From: Wenzhouxiangella sp. XN201
GTDB lineage: Bacteria; Pseudomonadota; Gammaproteobacteria; Xanthomonadales; Wenzhouxiangellaceae
DNA length: 64,000 nucleotides
Assembly (NCBI RefSeq): GCF_011008905.1
Contig: NZ_JAAIVI010000020.1
Coordinates: 124,001-188,000, forward strand
Direction: 5' to 3'
The position numbers were made by a program, and so were the translations under genes. Of the stretch, positions 28,318-36,238 are shown one piece after another; the first letter of the stretch is position 1; each line of letters begins with the position of its first letter. A model generated the notes under the pieces. It worked only from the letters and a program-made list of their open reading frames with translations, searched no databases and was not told the DNA's origin.

Positions 28318-29826
28318 TCAGGCGGTGTGTGCCAGGACGTCCTGGCGCCGATCGAGTTGCCGGTAGCCGACCGCCTCGCTCAGATGGCGCGCATCGATGT
28401 CGGCGGCGCCGTCGAGATCGGCAATGGTGCGCGCCACGCGCAGGATGCGATGGTGCGCCCGGGCCGACAGGCGCAACCGCTCGCAGGCCGTTTCGAGCAG
28501 CCCGGCACAGCGCTCATCGAGCGCGCAGTGCTCGCGGATGCCGTTGATATCCAGGCGGGCGTTGATGCGGCCACGTGCCGACTGACGTTTGCGTGCAAAG
28601 AGCACCCGCTCGCGCACGGTCGCCGATGGTTCGCCCTGCGGCAGGTCTTTGAGGGACTGGTGCGGCACGTCCACGTGCAGGTCGATGCGATCGAGCAGCG
28701 GCCCGGAAATGCGGTCGCGGTAGCGGCGGATCTGGTCGGGCGTGCAGTTGCAGCGCCCCGAGGGATCGCCCTCGTAGCCGCAGGGGCAGGGATTCATCGC
28801 CGCGACCAATTGAAAGGCGGCTGGAAATTCAGCCTGCACCGCCGCGCGCGAGATCACCACGCGGCCGGATTCGAGCGGTTCGCGCAGCACCTCCAGCACG
28901 TGCCGGGAAAACTCCGGCAGTTCGTCCAGGAACAGGACGCCGCCGTGGGCCAGCGAGATTTCACCCGGCCGCGGTTTCGAGCCGCCACCGACCAGGGCCA
29001 CGCCCGAAGCCGTGTGGTGCGGAGAGCGGAACTTGCGCTGCCGCCAGGTGGCCGGGTCGAGCTCGCGGCCGGCGACCGAGGCGATGGCCGCCGCTTCCAG
29101 CGCCTCGGTCTCTTCCATCGGCGGCAGGATGCCGGCCAGGCGCGAGGCCAGCAGGGTCTTGCCGGTGCCCGGCGGACCCATCAAAAGCAGGTTGTGGCCG
29201 CCGGCGGCAGCGATCTCCAGCGCCCGGCGTGCGCGGTGTTGTCCCAGCACGTCGGCCAGGTCCGGGCCGCTCCAGGTTCTGCATTCCGTGCTCTTGGTGG
29301 CGCGCGCCAGCGCCTGCCGACCGTTGAGCGCCGCGGCGACCTCGCTCAGTGATTCGGCCAGGTAGATCTCGGCATCCTCGACCAGGCCGGCTTCCTCGGC
29401 ATTGGCTCGGGGCAGGACCAGTTTGCGGCCGTTCTCGCGCACCCGCAGGATGGCCGGCAGCGCACCCTTGACCGCGCGCAACCGGCCGGTCAGCGACAGC
29501 TCGCCGAGAAACTCCCATTCATGGAGTTCTTCATCGGGCACCTGGCCGGAGGCGGCCAGTACGCCGACGGCAATCGGCAAGTCGAAGCGCGCGCCTTCCT
29601 TGGGCAGATCAGCCGGGGCCAGCGATATCGTGGTGCGCCAGGAAGGCAGCTCAAAATCCGAGTTCTTCATCGCCGCGCGCACACGGTCCTTGCTCTCGCG
29701 CACGGCCGTTTCCGGCAGACCGACGATGGTCACCATCGGCAGCCCCGGCGAAAGATTGACCTCGCAGAGCACCTGCGGCGCCTCGATCCCGACGGCGGCG
29801 CGTGAAAGCACGGTTGCCAAGCCCAT
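28318..29826 (-). CDS. comM: ComM/YifB family branch-migration helicase, intact copy
   Basis: This 502-residue protein has the normal ComM layout: an N-terminal Lon-like domain, an AAA+ domain with Walker A GPPGTGKT (around residue 220) and LFLDELPEF as Walker B, a CPCGY cysteine motif, and a C-terminal Mg-chelatase domain. ComM is a hexameric helicase that extends heteroduplex during natural transformation. The ATG at 29826 was chosen by alignment with the truncated second copy. The first 282 codons are duplicated at 34007-34852. It lies downstream of the cargo operon, on the same strand. Confidence 0.93.
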   Translation of the reverse strand: MGLATVLSRAAVGIEAPQVLCEVNLSPGLPMVTIVGLPETAVRESKDRVRAAMKNSDFELPSWRTTISLAPADLPKEGARFDLPIAVGVLAASGQVPDEELHEWEFLGELSLTGRLRAVKGALPAILRVRENGRKLVLPRANAEEAGLVEDAEIYLAESLSEVAAALNGRQALARATKSTECRTWSGPDLADVLGQHRARRALEIAAAGGHNLLLMGPPGTGKTLLASRLAGILPPMEETEALEAAAIASVAGRELDPATWRQRKFRSPHHTASGVALVGGGSKPRPGEISLAHGGVLFLDELPEFSRHVLEVLREPLESGRVVISRAAVQAEFPAAFQLVAAMNPCPCGYEGDPSGRCNCTPDQIRRYRDRISGPLLDRIDLHVDVPHQSLKDLPQGEPSATVRERVLFARKRQSARGRINARLDINGIREHCALDERCAGLLETACERLRLSARAHHRILRVARTIADLDGAADIDARHLSEAVGYRQLDRRQDVLAHTA

Positions 29827-29904
29827 GGTGACTCCGCTGTTGAGACTGGGGACAGCTTGCTCCAAGCACCTGCGGCCGCGAAATAGCCGCTTCGCGTGAC
29901 GGCT

Positions 29905-29920
29905 TGTAGGAAATTTGCTA
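29905..29920 (-). promoter_or_regulatory. Conserved motif upstream of comM
   Basis: Read on the comM strand the block is TAGCAAATTTCCTACA, ending about 79 bases before the ATG. The truncated comM copy has the same block with one change at nearly the same distance (77 bases), while the sequence between block and ATG is not alike. This marks it as a probable regulatory site; the factor is unknown. Confidence 0.55.
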
Positions 29921-29974
29921 TTCCGCCAGCAGATCGCGCGACTGCGGCGGCAATTCGGCGCCATTCGCTGGGTG

Positions 29975-30046: not shown

Positions 30047-30096
30047 GTTAGTCGCGCTCCTTCTTGAAAAGTAGCGTTAATTGTTGCGACTTGACA
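30047..30096 (-). repeat. Transposon-end-like repeat, copy 2
   Basis: Read on the minus strand it starts TGTCAA and contains CAATTAACGCTACTTT and then CAAGAAGGAGCGC. It is closely similar to, and in the same orientation as, the sequence at 33959-34006. Two related units of about 20 bases (starting GCAACAATTAACGC and TCAAGAAGGAGCGC) can be set out within it, as in transposase-binding repeats of Tn7-like and related elements. Confidence 0.65.
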
Positions 30097-30153: not shown

Positions 30154-30185
30154 AAAAATCCCCTGCCCAATTCAAGGCAGGGGAT
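30154..30185 (-). terminator. Intrinsic terminator of the secreted-protease operon
   Basis: On the minus strand a perfect 10-base stem (ATCCCCTGCC / GGCAGGGGAT) with a short loop is followed by TTTTT. It lies 32 bases after the protease stop codon and separates the cargo operon from comM. Confidence 0.9.
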
Positions 30186-30216: not shown

Positions 30217-31683
30217 TTACGGGCAAGTAAAGGAATACTGATCAAGTGTCGTTCCGTACGGGTTGGTTGTTGCGAGATTCACTTGTACTGGCTGTCCGGA
30301 GGAGCAAGTTCCCGTTAAGACCACCGAAGTCGAAGAGTGACCAGTACTCGATGTCCAGCTTATTTCCGGCCACCCTTGTGAATGTATGTTATCCAGCGCG
30401 CAGAAAAAATTTTCTGGCGCATGGAGTGTCGTGTCAGGGCAGATAGAAGTGTTCACTGGCGGGTTCACCCCATGTGAGGTTAGCATAGTCAATGAAAATG
30501 CGTCAGTGCTGTCATCAGCTGGCCAAAAAAATGTTCTATCCGCTCCGGTCTCACACGTGCTCCCGGCTGGATCCACTCCTACATTAGTTCCTTGTGCTTG
30601 TAGTGTGCCAGCCCCCACCCAAGAACCGCCGGAATCCCCAGGTTCAGAGCAGGATCCATTCACTTCAGTTACTCCGTCTATGGTAATGGAGTAAGGATAG
30701 TACGGTAAATCAAATGCCTGCTCTGCGTCCCAAGCGTTTATAGTTCCGCAGTGCGGACCTCCGCTCGTCCCACCATATCGACAGACGGTATTACCGATCA
30801 GCGCTCGGTCTAATCCCGCCCATTCCGCAGGTATCGAAAAGACACCAGATCCGTAACCTTGAACCTCCGGAACGGGGTTCCAGGCAGACGTAGTATCGAC
30901 CCAGCCTCTGTCCTCTGGACCCCAATCCGACTGCTGCACGGTTCCTAGAGCTACTTCAGTCGGAGTAACTATATCGTTTCCAACGTAACCGCAGTGTCCT
31001 GCCGTGACATAGCCCCCTTCAACGGCAAAACCGGCGGAACATTTGAAGTCCTCAAAAGTCTTATCTGGGTCGCTTGCTCCCCACGTTGAGTTTCTAGTCG
31101 GAACCGCCCCTCGAAGTGCGCCGGATGAGAATACGGGCAAACTTGAGACTTCCCTTACATGTACACTATCGCGAATCTGTAAACCGACCATCGCTGCTTC
31201 AATGAAAGCAGAATTTTCATCCTTGAAATCGACTTCAACTGCATTGATCCGAGGATTTACAGCGATACGAACTATTGCGTGAGCTAGCCTAGTGTCGGAG
31301 GCTAGCAGTGACTTGAGCGCCGTTCGCGCTCTCACAAGATCATCCAGGCTCCGTTGCACCAAAACCGGATCACCGCCCATTCTCTCGACGAAGTCCTCAT
31401 CATTTCGATCGGAAATAGCAACCTTAAGTGAAAGCGACTCAGCATCAAACCAGCTGCCCGCGTAACTGGCAATCGAAGATGCTTCAATCTTTCGCGCAAA
31501 ATCTGTTGCCTCAGCTTCTTTAGCTAGTCGTAAAATGGCCTGTTCTTCCGTAGAGCCATATAATTCCTGCACCTGTTTTAGGATATCTGTCTGCTGGCCA
31601 ATTGTTCCAGCAAGTGCAAATGGCGCGAATAGAATTAGCGCAATAATTATCAGCATTTTTGAATGATCAATTGACTTTTTCAC
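30217..31683 (-). CDS. Secreted S1E-like (alpha-lytic/streptogrisin type) serine protease
   Basis: This 488-residue protein has a signal peptide (ending FALA), a pro-region of about 180 residues, and a chymotrypsin-fold catalytic domain. The histidine is in TAGHCG and the serine in SEPGDSGGSW, the form used by alpha-lytic protease and streptogrisins; TVCRYGGTSGGPHCG corresponds to their conserved disulfide region. A further C-terminal cysteine-containing domain of about 90 residues ends in YSFTCP. It probably matures by removal of the pro-region and acts outside the cell. The GTG start has GGGAGAAG upstream. It is the second gene of a two-gene operon and is clearly lower in GC than the chromosome around it. 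Confidence 0.87.
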   Translation of the reverse strand: MKKSIDHSKMLIIIALILFAPFALAGTIGQQTDILKQVQELYGSTEEQAILRLAKEAEATDFARKIEASSIASYAGSWFDAESLSLKVAISDRNDEDFVERMGGDPVLVQRSLDDLVRARTALKSLLASDTRLAHAIVRIAVNPRINAVEVDFKDENSAFIEAAMVGLQIRDSVHVREVSSLPVFSSGALRGAVPTRNSTWGASDPDKTFEDFKCSAGFAVEGGYVTAGHCGYVGNDIVTPTEVALGTVQQSDWGPEDRGWVDTTSAWNPVPEVQGYGSGVFSIPAEWAGLDRALIGNTVCRYGGTSGGPHCGTINAWDAEQAFDLPYYPYSITIDGVTEVNGSCSEPGDSGGSWVGAGTLQAQGTNVGVDPAGSTCETGADRTFFWPADDSTDAFSLTMLTSHGVNPPVNTSICPDTTLHAPENFFCALDNIHSQGWPEISWTSSTGHSSTSVVLTGTCSSGQPVQVNLATTNPYGTTLDQYSFTCP

Positions 31684-31714
31684 AGTACTTCTCCCAGCCC
31701 ATTTCCCCTTGTGA

Positions 31715-33691
31715 TTACTTCGGTGTCAGATGAAGGATGTATGCACGAGTTTCTGAACGAGTAAACGGCCGGTTGGGGGTCCGTCCTTCGATCAGTATCA
31801 TCGAGCCATCGCGCGAAATGCTGCGCGCATTCATGCTGCCCCATTCGCTATCCTTCAGTTCTGGAACCTCCGTCAATGAACGTGACGACGTAATACCGGT
31901 GTTTTGGGTCCAAATGAAGGCCCTGGCTAGCAGCCTGTCGTCTGAGTCCACTGTAGCGTAGTGTCCGACGATGATTGAGCCATCGCCGGACATGGCACGT
32001 GGAAGGTACGGGGGGTCTTGAATGGCCACTATCGTATCAGGCAATTCGCCGAGAAATCCAAATTCCCCAGTGGGTTTCCAATACCAGGCCTGTCGGAAAT
32101 GGGGATGATCAGGTAAAGCCAAAGGGGTATCGCCGCCAGCCACCAGGCTGCAGTCAAAATTGCAACTTGTTGCGGGCCCCAGTTGTTGCCCGCTCGGGGT
32201 ATACAAAAATTGCGGCTCGTTGTCGTTAACCCATCGGAGCCCCGCCGTCCATTCTGATGCGGATCCGTTACTGAAATGCAGGCTATCACCCACTACCGTG
32301 CTGCCGTCATTGGAGGCTGCAAATGCCCGCACGATGGGAGTTTCGTCGGACTTGTTCAGCGCGACTTGTCCATTGTCGGCGCTCCAGATCCACGGGACGT
32401 CGCCAGAAATATCCGGGCCGCTACCTCGGCCGACCAGGTGACTTCTATCCTGTGACGCGCCCTCCAGGATCGATCTCTCGAAGATCAGGCCCTGGAGTGG
32501 TTGCCAACCAGTATCATCCCGCCACCTCTTGAGACGCACGTCTCCACTCGAAACCTTATCCATTGCGAACAGCGCACTGGAGTCTGGAACGATCACCGGG
32601 TCAGTGCTGATCAAGTCCGACCCCAATTGGTCCATTGTCTGGTCGCCAAATCGCCAACGGTACACCGTGTTGCCATCAGCCCCACCTACACGTACTGCGA
32701 TAACCGTTCCGTCATCTGCGATATCACGAGCCTGAATGTTCGTTGGCCCACCGTCATAGACAACGGGGATCTCGGTCACGCTCAACTCATATAGGTCCGA
32801 AAGCTGTGGAGGTTTCCATGGACAAGCGGGTTGGCTCAAATGTGTCAGGCGATCAAGGCTCAGCATGCCGAATCCAAATTCGGGGAATTCCGAGTCATAC
32901 TGCGCTGTTCCACCGCCGCAATCGATATCGAGCGTCAACGAGCCCCACTCGGTGTACTCGATGTCATTGGCATTGAATGCCTCGCCGAATCCTGTCCCCC
33001 CGGTCGAATACAACACCGGAAAGTCGATCTTTCCATCCTCGAAGGTGCCAGTGCCAATCATCCAGTACTGGTTACCGTCGAGGTCGTAGCTGAACCAGAT
33101 CAGTACTGCCTGGTCGCGTGACATCCACTGCAGGGTGTAGCCTTCGCCACTGTGAGTCGGGTCATACCAGGAACCGCTCTGGCCGGCATACTCGCGTACT
33201 GGCTGGCCCGGAACACCGTGTATGGGCTGACAGCCTGCCGCCATGGTTTGACTCAAGCGGACCACGGAGATGGTTTCGCTCTGGTCGAAGGCCGCGTAGC
33301 TGAACTCACCATGATCGCAATCTGAAAAGCTGAGTATTGCCTCGCCAACCACCTCGTACTCCACTTCATTGGGATCGAAGTTCGGGCCAAATCGTCCGCC
33401 GCGGGTCACGGTCAGTTCCGGAAAGATAATCTCGTCGCCGCTGATTTCACCGACATCGATCAGCCAGCGCTGATTGCCCTCCTCGTCGTAGGTGAACCAG
33501 TAGAGTAGGGCCGCGTCGTCGCTGAGTATCTCCAATACCAGACCCTCGCCGCTGCGATCGGGGTTGAACCAGTGGGCGCTCAGGCCGGAGGTGACGGAGA
33601 ACTCTTCGGCAAGTGCGGGTGAAACAGGCAGGATCAGGGCAAAGGCGCACAGCCAACGGCGCAATGCACCTGCGGAGGTCGCAAGCTTCAT
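31715..33691 (-). CDS. Secreted protein with two N-terminal SGEG/GNQ domains and HAF-type repeats
   Basis: This 658-residue exported protein has a signal peptide ending ALA. Two copies of a domain of about 120 residues follow, each with SGEG, a WF(T/S)YD core, GNQ and a tryptophan (for example DRSGEGLVLE and THSGEGYTLQ). The C-terminal 350 residues hold repeats of the ISDDGS-like kind (IADDGTVIAV, SNDGSTVVGDS, SGDGSIIVGHY, SRDGSMILIEG), as in HAF-repeat extracellular proteins with a propeller-like layout. The start at 33691 was chosen for its AGGA site; 33718 is an upstream alternative. It precedes the protease gene by 31 bases. Function unknown. Confidence 0.75.
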   Translation of the reverse strand: MKLATSAGALRRWLCAFALILPVSPALAEEFSVTSGLSAHWFNPDRSGEGLVLEILSDDAALLYWFTYDEEGNQRWLIDVGEISGDEIIFPELTVTRGGRFGPNFDPNEVEYEVVGEAILSFSDCDHGEFSYAAFDQSETISVVRLSQTMAAGCQPIHGVPGQPVREYAGQSGSWYDPTHSGEGYTLQWMSRDQAVLIWFSYDLDGNQYWMIGTGTFEDGKIDFPVLYSTGGTGFGEAFNANDIEYTEWGSLTLDIDCGGGTAQYDSEFPEFGFGMLSLDRLTHLSQPACPWKPPQLSDLYELSVTEIPVVYDGGPTNIQARDIADDGTVIAVRVGGADGNTVYRWRFGDQTMDQLGSDLISTDPVIVPDSSALFAMDKVSSGDVRLKRWRDDTGWQPLQGLIFERSILEGASQDRSHLVGRGSGPDISGDVPWIWSADNGQVALNKSDETPIVRAFAASNDGSTVVGDSLHFSNGSASEWTAGLRWVNDNEPQFLYTPSGQQLGPATSCNFDCSLVAGGDTPLALPDHPHFRQAWYWKPTGEFGFLGELPDTIVAIQDPPYLPRAMSGDGSIIVGHYATVDSDDRLLARAFIWTQNTGITSSRSLTEVPELKDSEWGSMNARSISRDGSMILIEGRTPNRPFTRSETRAYILHLTPK

Positions 33692-34006
33692 CGTCAGATT
33701 CCTGGGTCGGGATTTCATTTGGATGCGCCAACACCACTTTTGCTATTACCTCGCCCCCCTTTCGAACGTACGCGAGACTTGAACGACAAGTCAAGAATTG
33801 TCGAAGAGAACCATCGTGACTCAGGTCATGCTTTTTCGTTGCCCGGCTTGGTGTAGCACGACTCGATACCTGGAATCCGAGCGAAGGATCGCTACGAACA
33901 AAGGGGTGCAAAATTAGCGCGATAGCTGGTGGTGTCTCTTCGGCACATGCAAGGGATTGCGGTAGCGCAAATTCTTGTAAAGTAGCGTTAATCGTTGTAA
34001 TTGACA
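33692..34006. other. Noncoding stretch between cargo operon and truncated comM
   Basis: It presumably holds the promoter of the cargo operon. A small perfect inverted repeat, GACTTG-AACGA-CAAGTC, lies at 33776-33792 and could be an operator or hairpin. The last 48 bases are the transposon-end-like repeat. No gene is seen. Confidence 0.6.
33959..34006 (-). repeat. Transposon-end-like repeat, copy 1, abutting truncated comM
   Basis: On the minus strand TGTCAA starts directly after the GGC codon of Gly282 of the truncated comM. Two tandem related units of about 20 bases follow (ACAACGATTAACGCTACTTT and ACAAGAATTTGCGCTACCGC, 13 of 20 positions equal). A TGT terminus with internal tandem repeats is typical of element ends bound by TnsB/TniA-type transposases. 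It shares ATTAACGCTACTTT and CAAGAA with copy 2. Confidence 0.65.
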
Positions 34007-34852
34007 GCCGCCGCCGACCAGGGCCACGCCCGATGCCGTGTGGTGCGGCGATCGGAACTTGCGCTGCCGCCAGGTGGCCGGATCGAGCTCGCGGCCGGCG
34101 ACCGAGGCGATGGCCGCCGCTTCCAGCGCTTCGGTCTCTTCCATCGGCGGCAGGATGCCTGCCAGCCGGGAGGCCAGCAGGGTCTTGCCGGTGCCCGGCG
34201 GGCCCATCAGCAGGAGATTGTGACCGCCGGCGGCGGCGATCTCCAGCGCCCGGCGCGCCCGGTGCTGGCCCAGCACGTCGGCCAGGTCCGGCCCGCTCCA
34301 GGTTTTGCATTCCGTGCTCTTGGTCGCGCGCGCCAGCGCTTGCCGGCCGTTGAGCGCTGCGGCGACCTCGCTCAGTGACTCGGCCAGGTAGATTTCGGCA
34401 TCGCCGACCAGGCCGGCTTCCTCGGCATTGGCCCGGGGCAGGACCAGTTTCCGACCGTTCTCGCGCACCCGCAGGATGGCCGGCAGCGCGCCCTTGACCG
34501 CGCGCAACCGGCCGGTCAGCGACAACTCGCCGAGAAACTCCCATTCATTGAGTTCTTCATCGGGCACCTGGCCCGAGGCGGCCAGAACGCCCACGGCAAT
34601 CGGCAAGTCGAAACGTGCGCCTTCCTTGGGGAGATCAGCCGGGGCCAGCGATATCGTGGTGCGCCAGGAAGGCAGTTCGAAATCCGAATTCTTCATCGCC
34701 GCACGCACCCGGTCCTTGCTCTCGCGCACGGCGGTTTCCGGCAGGCCGACGATGGTCACCATCGGCAGCCCCGGCGAAAGATTGACCTCGCAGAGTACCT
34801 GCGGCGCCTCGATCCCCACGGCGGCACGCGACAGCACGGTTGCCAGTCCCAT
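34007..34852 (-). pseudogene. comM: Truncated comM copy (first 282 codons)
   Basis: The translation matches the intact ComM over residues 1-282 with only three substitutions (His to Asn in the EEL-EWEFL stretch, Glu to Gly before DAEIY, Arg to Lys in TEC-TW). It then stops matching at VGGG and reads about 30 foreign codons before a stop at 33914. It retains Walker A but lacks Walker B and the C-terminal domain, so it cannot be a working helicase. At the DNA level 12 of 180 bases differ in the stretch I compared (29041-29220 against 34067-34246); all those I translated are silent. Confidence 0.92.
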
Positions 34853-34931
34853 CAACCCGTTCCGTTTAAAGCCTGCCGACAGAATGGATCAGTTCACGTC
34901 GTTCTGACGATGGCCGTATGGCGTAGCGTGC

Positions 34932-34947
34932 TGTAGGAAAATTGCTA
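34932..34947 (-). promoter_or_regulatory. Conserved motif upstream of truncated comM
   Basis: On the comM strand the block reads TAGCAATTTTCCTACA, one base different from the block upstream of the intact copy and at the same distance from the ATG. It shows that the truncated copy kept its own upstream region. Confidence 0.55.
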
Positions 34948-34974
34948 TCCGTTCTCCAGTCTGATCTTGACATC

Positions 34975-34991
34975 GGTACGTGATACGTACC
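34975..34991. promoter_or_regulatory. Palindromic operator candidate of higBA
   Basis: GGTACGT-GAT-ACGTACC is a perfect 7-base inverted repeat 11 bases before the toxin ATG and just after a TTGACA sequence (34967-34972). HigA antitoxins repress their own promoter through such palindromes. The -10 element is not clear. Confidence 0.65.
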
Positions 34992-35002
34992 ACAATACAT
35001 GC

Positions 35003-35281
35003 ATGATTCGAAGCTTCGGCTGCGACGAAACCCGAAAACTGTTCGAAACGGGTAAGAGTCGCCGATTTTCGGCCATCGCCAAAGTGGCCTTGCGCAAGCT
35101 GGATCAGTTGGACAACGTCACCCAGCTTCGCTCATTGGCTGTCCCGCCCGGCAACTGCCTGGAGGCGCTGAAGGGTGATCGAATTGGCCAATTCAGCATC
35201 CGGATCAACAGGCAGTGGAGAGTTTGTTTCCGCTGGAGTGACGATGGCCCCGAAGATGTTGAGATCGTTGATTACCATTGA
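35003..35281 (+). CDS. higB: HigB-type RelE-family toxin
   Basis: This 92-residue protein matches the HigB family in length and layout: SFGCDETRKLFETG at the start, LRSLAVPPGNCLEALKGDRIGQFSIRIN in the middle and WRVCFRW, which is typical of these ribosome-dependent mRNA interferases. Toxin-first order with the antitoxin next is the normal higBA arrangement. The ATG at 35003 was chosen by family length. It lies 150 bases from the truncated comM start, divergent from it, so it may belong to the same acquired block. Confidence 0.9.
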   Translation: MIRSFGCDETRKLFETGKSRRFSAIAKVALRKLDQLDNVTQLRSLAVPPGNCLEALKGDRIGQFSIRINRQWRVCFRWSDDGPEDVEIVDYH

Positions 35282-35289
35282 GGTGCGAT

Positions 35290-35574
35290 ATGAACAGAGT
35301 GACCACACACCCCGGTGAGATGCTTCGGGAAGAGTTCATGGTGCCGTTTGGTCTGTCCGCCCGCGAACTGGCGCGAGCGCTGGATGTTCCCCACAACCGG
35401 ATTTCTGAACTGGTAGCCGGGCGCCGATCCATGACTGCCGACACGGCCCTGCGCCTGGAGCGCTACTTCGGTATGGAGGCCAGGTTCTGGCTCAACCTGC
35501 AGACCGCGCACGATCTTTCGCGTGCCCGAGCAGAAGGACGCTTTGACCACATCGAGCCGCGCGAAGCCGCTTGA
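35290..35574 (+). CDS. higA: HigA-type antitoxin
   Basis: This 94-residue protein has the HigA start (HPGEMLREEFM) and an XRE-type helix-turn-helix (ARELARALDVPHNRISELVAG). It binds HigB and represses the operon. The ATG at 35290 is preceded by GAGG overlapping the toxin stop region; a TTG at 35278 is possible but less likely. It follows higB by 8 bases. Confidence 0.9.
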   Translation: MNRVTTHPGEMLREEFMVPFGLSARELARALDVPHNRISELVAGRRSMTADTALRLERYFGMEARFWLNLQTAHDLSRARAEGRFDHIEPREAA

Positions 35575-35647: not shown

Positions 35648-36238
35648 ATGAACAGAGTATTCATTGCAATTGGTTCTACATTCATTCTCTGCTCGATCGC
35701 TTTCGGCGGCCTTGCTTCCGAGCGAGCGGGGGCCGGACAAGATGAGCCCCCACGCTTTGCAACGGCTTGTCCATCGGTTTCCGCTGACAGTCGTACAAGA
35801 ATCGAAAAGGAGATTTCTGGCGTTCTCGGCGATCAGTTACGGCGGTATCACGGAGGAGATGCGCTGCCCCTGAACACCAGTTTGGAACCACTGGTTGATA
35901 GCGAGCATCGGAAGGCCTGCGAGTACTTGACGCGCGTGTACAAGAATCTTATTAACAAGACGTACCAGAGGTCCGAGGGTTCCCAGCCGAGCTATGAGTA
36001 TTCGGTGGCCTATTTTGAAGCGGGCTCATTTTACTTTGTGCTAATCGATATCCATCCGGATCAACTTGTGAGTTCTGATCCAAGGTTTGATCGTGTGGTT
36101 ATCAGCTCGGCTACAGGTCCGCGAGTGCATCTAAAAGAGAATATGGAACGTGTAAGTGATCAGAAGGGTTTTGTCTATGGGCCCAAGTACCAAAAACTTG
36201 TGAACGACCGAATCCGCGAGCGGTTGGAAGGCCATTGA
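35648..36238 (+). CDS. Hypothetical exported protein
   Basis: This 196-residue protein has a probable signal peptide (IAIGSTFILCSIAFGGLAS) and no motif I recognise. The mature part has two cysteines (ATACPSV and KACEYL), a tyrosine-rich middle (YEYSVAYFEAGSFYFVLIDI) and a basic C-terminus. Base composition is well below that of the surrounding genes, in line with transfer together with the comM-adjacent material. It has no clear ribosome-binding site and no obvious partner. Confidence 0.6.
   Translation: MNRVFIAIGSTFILCSIAFGGLASERAGAGQDEPPRFATACPSVSADSRTRIEKEISGVLGDQLRRYHGGDALPLNTSLEPLVDSEHRKACEYLTRVYKNLINKTYQRSEGSQPSYEYSVAYFEAGSFYFVLIDIHPDQLVSSDPRFDRVVISSATGPRVHLKENMERVSDQKGFVYGPKYQKLVNDRIRERLEGH

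Follow-up and report, generated by a model that had tools for sequence, protein, structure and literature searches.

The question raised by this locus is how two genes for secreted proteins, with a base composition different from that of their surroundings, came to lie beside comM, and what the two proteins might do together. The window, which is the whole stretch of 64,000 nucleotides analyzed (Wenzhouxiangella sp. XN201, contig NZ_JAAIVI010000020.1, positions 124,001 to 188,000 of the forward strand; positions below are those of the window), carries at 30217-33691 a predicted serine protease gene and the gene of an exported partner, located between a complete comM gene and a truncated second copy of it. 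The account that we favor, and to which we give moderate confidence, is that a Tn7-like transposon inserted in comM and was largely lost, that comM was restored, and that the cargo persisted as a secreted module in which the protease would dock on its partner.

Both genes are encoded on the minus strand with 31 bases between their open reading frames (ORFs), as the initial annotation had described for a two-gene operon. The partner ORF (31715-33691) codes for 658 amino acids and the protease ORF (30217-31683, GTG start) for 488. Signal peptides are evident, judged by eye, at the N-terminus of both proteins, which agrees with their description as secreted. The strong terminator attributed to the pair was also recovered, as a rho-independent terminator on the minus strand (30158-30185) with a T run and an 11-bp stem that includes 7 G-C pairs, beginning 32 bases beyond the protease stop codon. 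A scan of the region gave 7 terminator sites against 4.6 expected from shuffled sequences and, therefore, the weight rests on the quality of the terminator at 30185-30158 and not on the count. The guanine plus cytosine (GC) content was 50.2% in the protease gene and 56.9% in the partner gene (44 and 64% at third positions), as against 64.8-69.4% (77-88% at third positions) in six neighboring genes, in line with the lower GC reported before; another neighbor, ORF 35648-36238, was likewise low (51.1%). Neither protein of the pair matched any defense family in PADLOC, as expected if these are not defense genes. A phage origin of the locus was rejected, since PHROGs gave no match, and no RNA or tRNA genes were found at the locus.

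The protease consists of a signal peptide, a pro-domain (residues ~31-185), a catalytic domain (~193-402) and a PKD-like C-terminal domain (406-488). It is predicted to belong to type S1E of MEROPS, the alpha-lytic protease/streptogrisin family, in which the pro-region serves as a foldase. The profile search returned an alpha-lytic protease match (E 3.5e-26), and the catalytic triad H230, D258 and S351 was invariant in all eight aligned proteases. In structure comparisons the pro-region matched 4pro_D (Z 12.2, 149 aligned, 2.2 Å), the catalytic domain 2alp (Z 11.5, 178 aligned, 3.9 Å) and the C-terminal domain the PKD structure 6aem_A (Z 9.3, 80 aligned, 2.2 Å). The Pfam family Pro_Al_protease was found in five of eight relatives and was absent from the window protease (P0001). 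Structure and profile thus agree in confirming the predicted S1E alpha-lytic-type protease with a pro-region that had been proposed. It has in common with its family the pro-region, the chymotrypsin-like fold, the triad and the conserved cysteines, and it differs from it by having a PKD-like domain added at the C-terminus and a propeller gene always next to it, neither of which was present in 100 other protease loci.

The partner had been described as a HAF-repeat protein. This label was rejected, given that it had no NCBIfam or Pfam support: none of 15 partner relatives matched an HAF model at E 0.1 (NCBIfam; presence of such a model in the library unconfirmed). The structure model (predicted local distance difference test, pLDDT, 86) instead showed, behind the signal peptide, two N-terminal beta domains (~30-290) followed by a seven-bladed beta-propeller (~300-658), the number of blades being judged from the strand pattern and the structure matches. 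The propeller matched 7roo (Z 23.9, 305 aligned, 3.7 Å) and 2gop_B (Z 21.6, 286 aligned, 3.4 Å). Among the 15 relatives there were also one weak YD-repeat match and weak CBM_56 matches in three (best E 0.0012). Both partners encoded in genome G363 are devoid of the N-terminal domains, which points to the propeller as the constant part of the partner.

The association of the two genes was examined in 398 genomes of the order, searched with the window protease, which gave protease matches in 30 of them. Proteases of the window type, with the C-terminal domain, amounted to 11 genes in nine genomes (the source genome G000, G053 with two, G363, G038 with two, G013, G019, G043, G068 and G385), and a propeller gene adjoins all 11. 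No propeller neighbor was present within 1.5 kb at 21 other protease loci of the order (the distant proteases whose locus was retrieved; some second copies with weaker matches were left out), nor in flanks of up to 8 kb at 79 protease loci of actinobacteria and other bacteria. Of the 110 loci examined, 10 encode the C-terminal domain and exactly these have a propeller gene, so that domain and neighbor agree in 110/110; it must be noted that L130 and L063 are one Dokdonella locus and that these 10 correspond to nine independent places. The protease frame is broken in G068, in G385 and in one G038 copy. The order propeller-protease is found in the window and in G043, and protease-propeller elsewhere; in G363 two propeller genes follow one protease. 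Propeller genes are also found without a protease, in G011, G017, G023 and once in G043. In G011 (L051, 3861-5963) the solitary gene is full-length and stands, in divergent orientation, directly beside and upstream of an intact comM, and G049 carries three propeller-family genes in a row (C6, 145541-151981). The initial annotation had asked for co-occurrence in other genomes and for its sites. The pair does recur, but in the eight other genomes it lies at unrelated places, none of them in comM, and no obvious mobile genes surround it when ORFs are read by eye. Vertical conservation at this locus was not seen, G003 and G027 having no pair beside comM.

The histories of the two partners appear to differ. 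In the protease tree the window groups with G053, G363/G385 and G038 (100/99), and in the propeller tree it is nearer to G017, G043 and G011 (72/86); the protease of G385 entered the analysis shortened to 330 amino acids, the G385 propeller was omitted and, of the further propeller paralogues, only one (G043, C2) was included. The approximately unbiased (AU) test rejected the window propeller forced into the protease-like grouping (p 0.003) and a window plus G043 grouping for the protease (p 0.012). Since the two trees conflict, the partners were probably re-paired in the course of evolution, which, with the caveat that the groups were chosen after the trees, suggests a functional bond between them. 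The literature on HAF proteins and on alpha-lytic protease, propeller and operon yielded no account of such a pair, which looks like a so far undescribed working unit.

With respect to how the pair reached this place, the sequence upstream of it is informative. A Tn7-like end of the left-end type lies on the minus strand at 33961-34006, with TGT at 34006-34004 and TnsB-site-like repeats at +14 and +34. A truncated comM ends exactly where this TGT begins, at the nucleotide of the Tn7-like insertions in comM of G049, G072 and G236. Among the 398 genomes, the comM-TGT pattern was present in seven and lay within comM in four (the source genome, G049, G264 and G072); the occurrences outside comM in G363, G376 and G291 were set aside. 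G236, recognized from its split comM, is a fifth genome with this insertion. The elements of G049, G072 and G236 carry relatives of the TnsA, TnsB, TnsC and TniQ of G049 and of its 509-amino-acid protein; the Pfam domains were checked in G049, where the latter protein has none and is TnsF by position only. The G264 element reaches the contig start, and no Tns match was found there. G087 was left unused; its comM is split at codon 284, the junction differs and the TnsA match is weak.

A second Tn7-like end is located on the minus strand at 30050-30096 (TGT at 30096-30094, with a pair of TnsB-site-like repeats spaced by 20 nt), in the same orientation as the first. In all six ends compared, the two of the window and four of relatives, two repeats with a spacing of 20 nt stand at about +14 and +34, and they are putative TnsB sites. 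Allowing up to 2 mismatches, the end motif matched nowhere else in the source genome or in the 398 genomes. The pair starts ~315 bases inside the first end, and both ends bracket it. No match to the Tns proteins of G049 was found within the window, and, as there is no tnsA, tnsB, tnsC or tniQ between inverted ends, we call the locus a remnant and not a transposon, presumptively the left-end remnant of a Tn6022-like element. The earlier view of the pair as mobile cargo in a comM insertion was therefore largely right, in that the pair lies inside a Tn7-like end at the comM target; the cargo is, however, stranded, with no transposase or right end. As to the 5-bp target duplication of such elements, in G049 the sequence GCGGC stands on both sides, a comparison for which the window lacks the right end. 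A search for a cognate transposase elsewhere in the source genome gave only a distant TnsB-like ORF (27% match). An ORF of 794 amino acids (L234, G000:C17:179283) by eye resembles a fused TnsA-TnsB transposase, and another Tn7-like element may be present elsewhere in this genome.

The same region holds two copies of comM. The complete gene (comM, or yifB; 28318-29826, minus strand) codes for 502 amino acids, with Mg_chelatase domains and a TIGR00368 match over residues 6-489 (E 1.2e-192). The remnant (34007-34852, minus strand) comprises codons 1-282 with no stops and is 98% identical in amino acids to the intact copy. The interruption of comM proposed initially thus applies to this remnant beyond the cargo, but not to the complete gene next door. 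The two copies lie ~5 kb apart and share 93.4% of bases, 56 of 846 being different. Over the 282 codons there were 52 silent and three amino-acid differences (synonymous divergence, dS, 0.266; nonsynonymous divergence, dN, 0.0057; dN/dS 0.022), while 56 random changes gave in simulation a mean of 37 amino-acid differences and never fewer than 23 in 5000 trials. The fact that nearly all differences are silent implies that the copies diverged as working genes under selection, most simply in different lineages, and one of them was probably imported recently. The upstream region of the intact gene (29827-29922, minus strand) is like that of G003 (75% over 133 nt, including the first 30 coding bases), and that of the remnant (34853-34948, minus strand) is like that of G011 (86.5% over 126 nt, including the first 30 coding bases). 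Within the intact gene, informative sites were G003-like by 91:46 before codon 283 and G027-like by 73:37 after it (Fisher p 4.6e-7). This shift of affinity near codon 283 is only suggestive because the relatives are so distant.

These observations can be joined in one sequence of events. A comM-targeting Tn7-like transposon of the Tn6022/TnsF type would have inserted after comM codon 282, bringing the two-gene cargo, and its transposition genes and right end would later have been lost. A complete comM allele of a sister lineage, possibly imported by transformation, would then have recombined in downstream and restored comM, while the left end, the cargo and the earlier 5' portion of comM stayed behind as a scar. 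As for the products, the protease would cross the inner membrane by means of its signal peptide, fold with its alpha-lytic pro-region and retain the PKD-like C-terminal domain. This domain would dock the protease on the exported propeller protein, which would hold or regulate the enzyme at the cell surface, where it may degrade proteins of prey or debris. Docking is proposed because every protease found to have the C-terminal domain is encoded next to a propeller gene, and we offer it tentatively. The predation or nutrition function considered in the initial annotation is an inference that goes further than the sequence data.

Several points weigh against this account. The right end was not found and the target-site duplication is missing, so that the insertion cannot be closed, and the second end, in direct orientation, fits no part of the proposed events (a tandem insertion would be one guess). 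The relatives, at ~80% identity, are too remote for the native comM copy to be told apart from the other, and recombination in those relatives may instead have produced the mosaic signal. On the side of the proteins, the window protease had no Pfam match at E 0.01 or 0.1, its model is moderately confident (pLDDT 70, 99 residues below 50), and the physical contact of protease and propeller protein is something that we infer. In addition, the AU groups were picked once the trees had been seen, and long branches are present.

Among the alternatives, the main rival to docking gives the propeller protein the role of inhibiting the protease or of protecting the cell from it. The constant adjacency and the apparent re-pairing would suit an enzyme and its guard, as would the two propeller genes after one protease in G363, both without N-terminal domains. 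Nevertheless, a pro-region, which also inhibits the enzyme in the case of alpha-lytic protease, is already part of this protease, and propeller genes also occur on their own in G011, G017, G023 and, for one of them, G043; we regard this function as rather unlikely. A different objection concerns the transposon itself, since the pair might be ordinary chromosomal content inserted upstream of comM, and the end an older unrelated scar. The scattered distribution of the pair elsewhere, where no mobile genes were evident by eye, and the G011 propeller gene beside an intact comM speak for it, but the pair begins ~315 bases inside a transposon end, is bracketed by two ends and has low GC, and we consider it unlikely.

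The state of comM also admits other explanations. Some integrative elements carry a 5' part and promoter of their target gene and restore it themselves, and an intact comM with an extra comM fragment is indeed present in G008, G040, G051, G099, G106, G113 and G135. However, a Tn7-like insertion requires a right end at the junction, while the intact gene runs from codon 282 to codon 283 with no end between them; the comM 3' part stays separate and unrestored in G049, G072 and G236; and in G051, G099, G106 and G135 the fragments begin at codon ~342 and represent the 3' part, which is another arrangement. Restoration by the element is accordingly quite improbable. Similar comM copies 5 kb apart are, moreover, a known trouble spot of assembly, and the assembly is the sole source of data, so that an artefact or a simple duplication of comM in place might be suspected. 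Neither in-place decay nor sequencing error yields 56 differences that are nearly all silent, the contig has 494 kb and the stated contamination is 0.03%, and we judge this explanation very improbable.

A further idea, bolder and of low probability, is that the pair would serve as a domesticated weapon controlled by competence, in which the signal of comM itself would switch on a secreted prey-digesting protease. The truncated comM still has its promoter region and reads directly toward the cargo, and a scan of the minus strand from the remnant to the start of the propeller gene revealed no terminator and no sigma-70-like promoter, so that the comM signal would drive the protease upon competence. 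If true, killing would be coupled to DNA uptake, and the imported comM would have restored uptake itself.

Comparison with known systems places the locus in context. Tn6022 and Tsy target comM through TnsF (PMC10293859). The window resembles Tn6022-like Tn7 transposons in its TGT end and TnsB-type repeats at the comM site used by tnsABC/tniQ elements, and differs in the absence of tns genes and of a right end, in the completeness of comM and in having the protease pair as cargo. For Acinetobacter baumannii, PMC11472951 raises the salvage of comM by recombination as a possibility, on the grounds that 35 of 386 genomes with complete comM had a recent recombination tract over it. The likeness lies in the recovery of a disrupted comM through recombination with homologous DNA; the difference is that in the window the old 5' allele and the cargo persist as a scar next to the restored gene. 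The account of Wenzhouxiangella AB-CW3 (PMC7691419) describes a predatory, proteolytic bacterium that preys on Gram-positive cells and for which its authors infer outer-membrane-anchored lytic proteases; in the passages searched, no alpha-lytic protease or propeller pair was found. The significance of the locus is twofold. It offers a recurrent module in which an S1E protease bearing a C-terminal domain of its own is accompanied by a propeller partner, and this module is open to tests of binding, anchoring or inhibition. It is also a natural scar, in which comM was apparently broken by a transposon and regained from another lineage with the cargo kept. As such it is relevant to the conflict that has been proposed between mobile elements and natural transformation, being a telling example of a conflict already known.

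Some minor observations were made around comM. In the window, TTTCCTAC occurs within a GCAAATTTCCTACA-like sequence ~100 bases upstream of both copies (29906-29921 and 34933-34948), and the same arrangement was present in eight of the nine upstream regions of comM that were aligned for the genus, counting the two copies of the window; it may be a control site that they share. On the plus strand (34967-35574), immediately upstream of the comM remnant, lies a pair formed by a HigB-like toxin and a helix-turn-helix (HTH) antitoxin. Some genomes that have an intact comM also harbor C-terminal comM fragments from codon ~342, at L246 and L247 (G135), L045 (G051), L245 (G099) and G106:C4. There are four comM fragments on one contig of G135, a divergent HTH gene is next to the fragments in G135 and G051, and these fragments look like the mark of another element family. 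Finally, comM is split near codons 303-308, in the Walker B region, by islands of ~22-31 kb in G019 (L038/L039), G048 (L042/L043) and G084, which would fit the Tsy type as described in PMC10293859.

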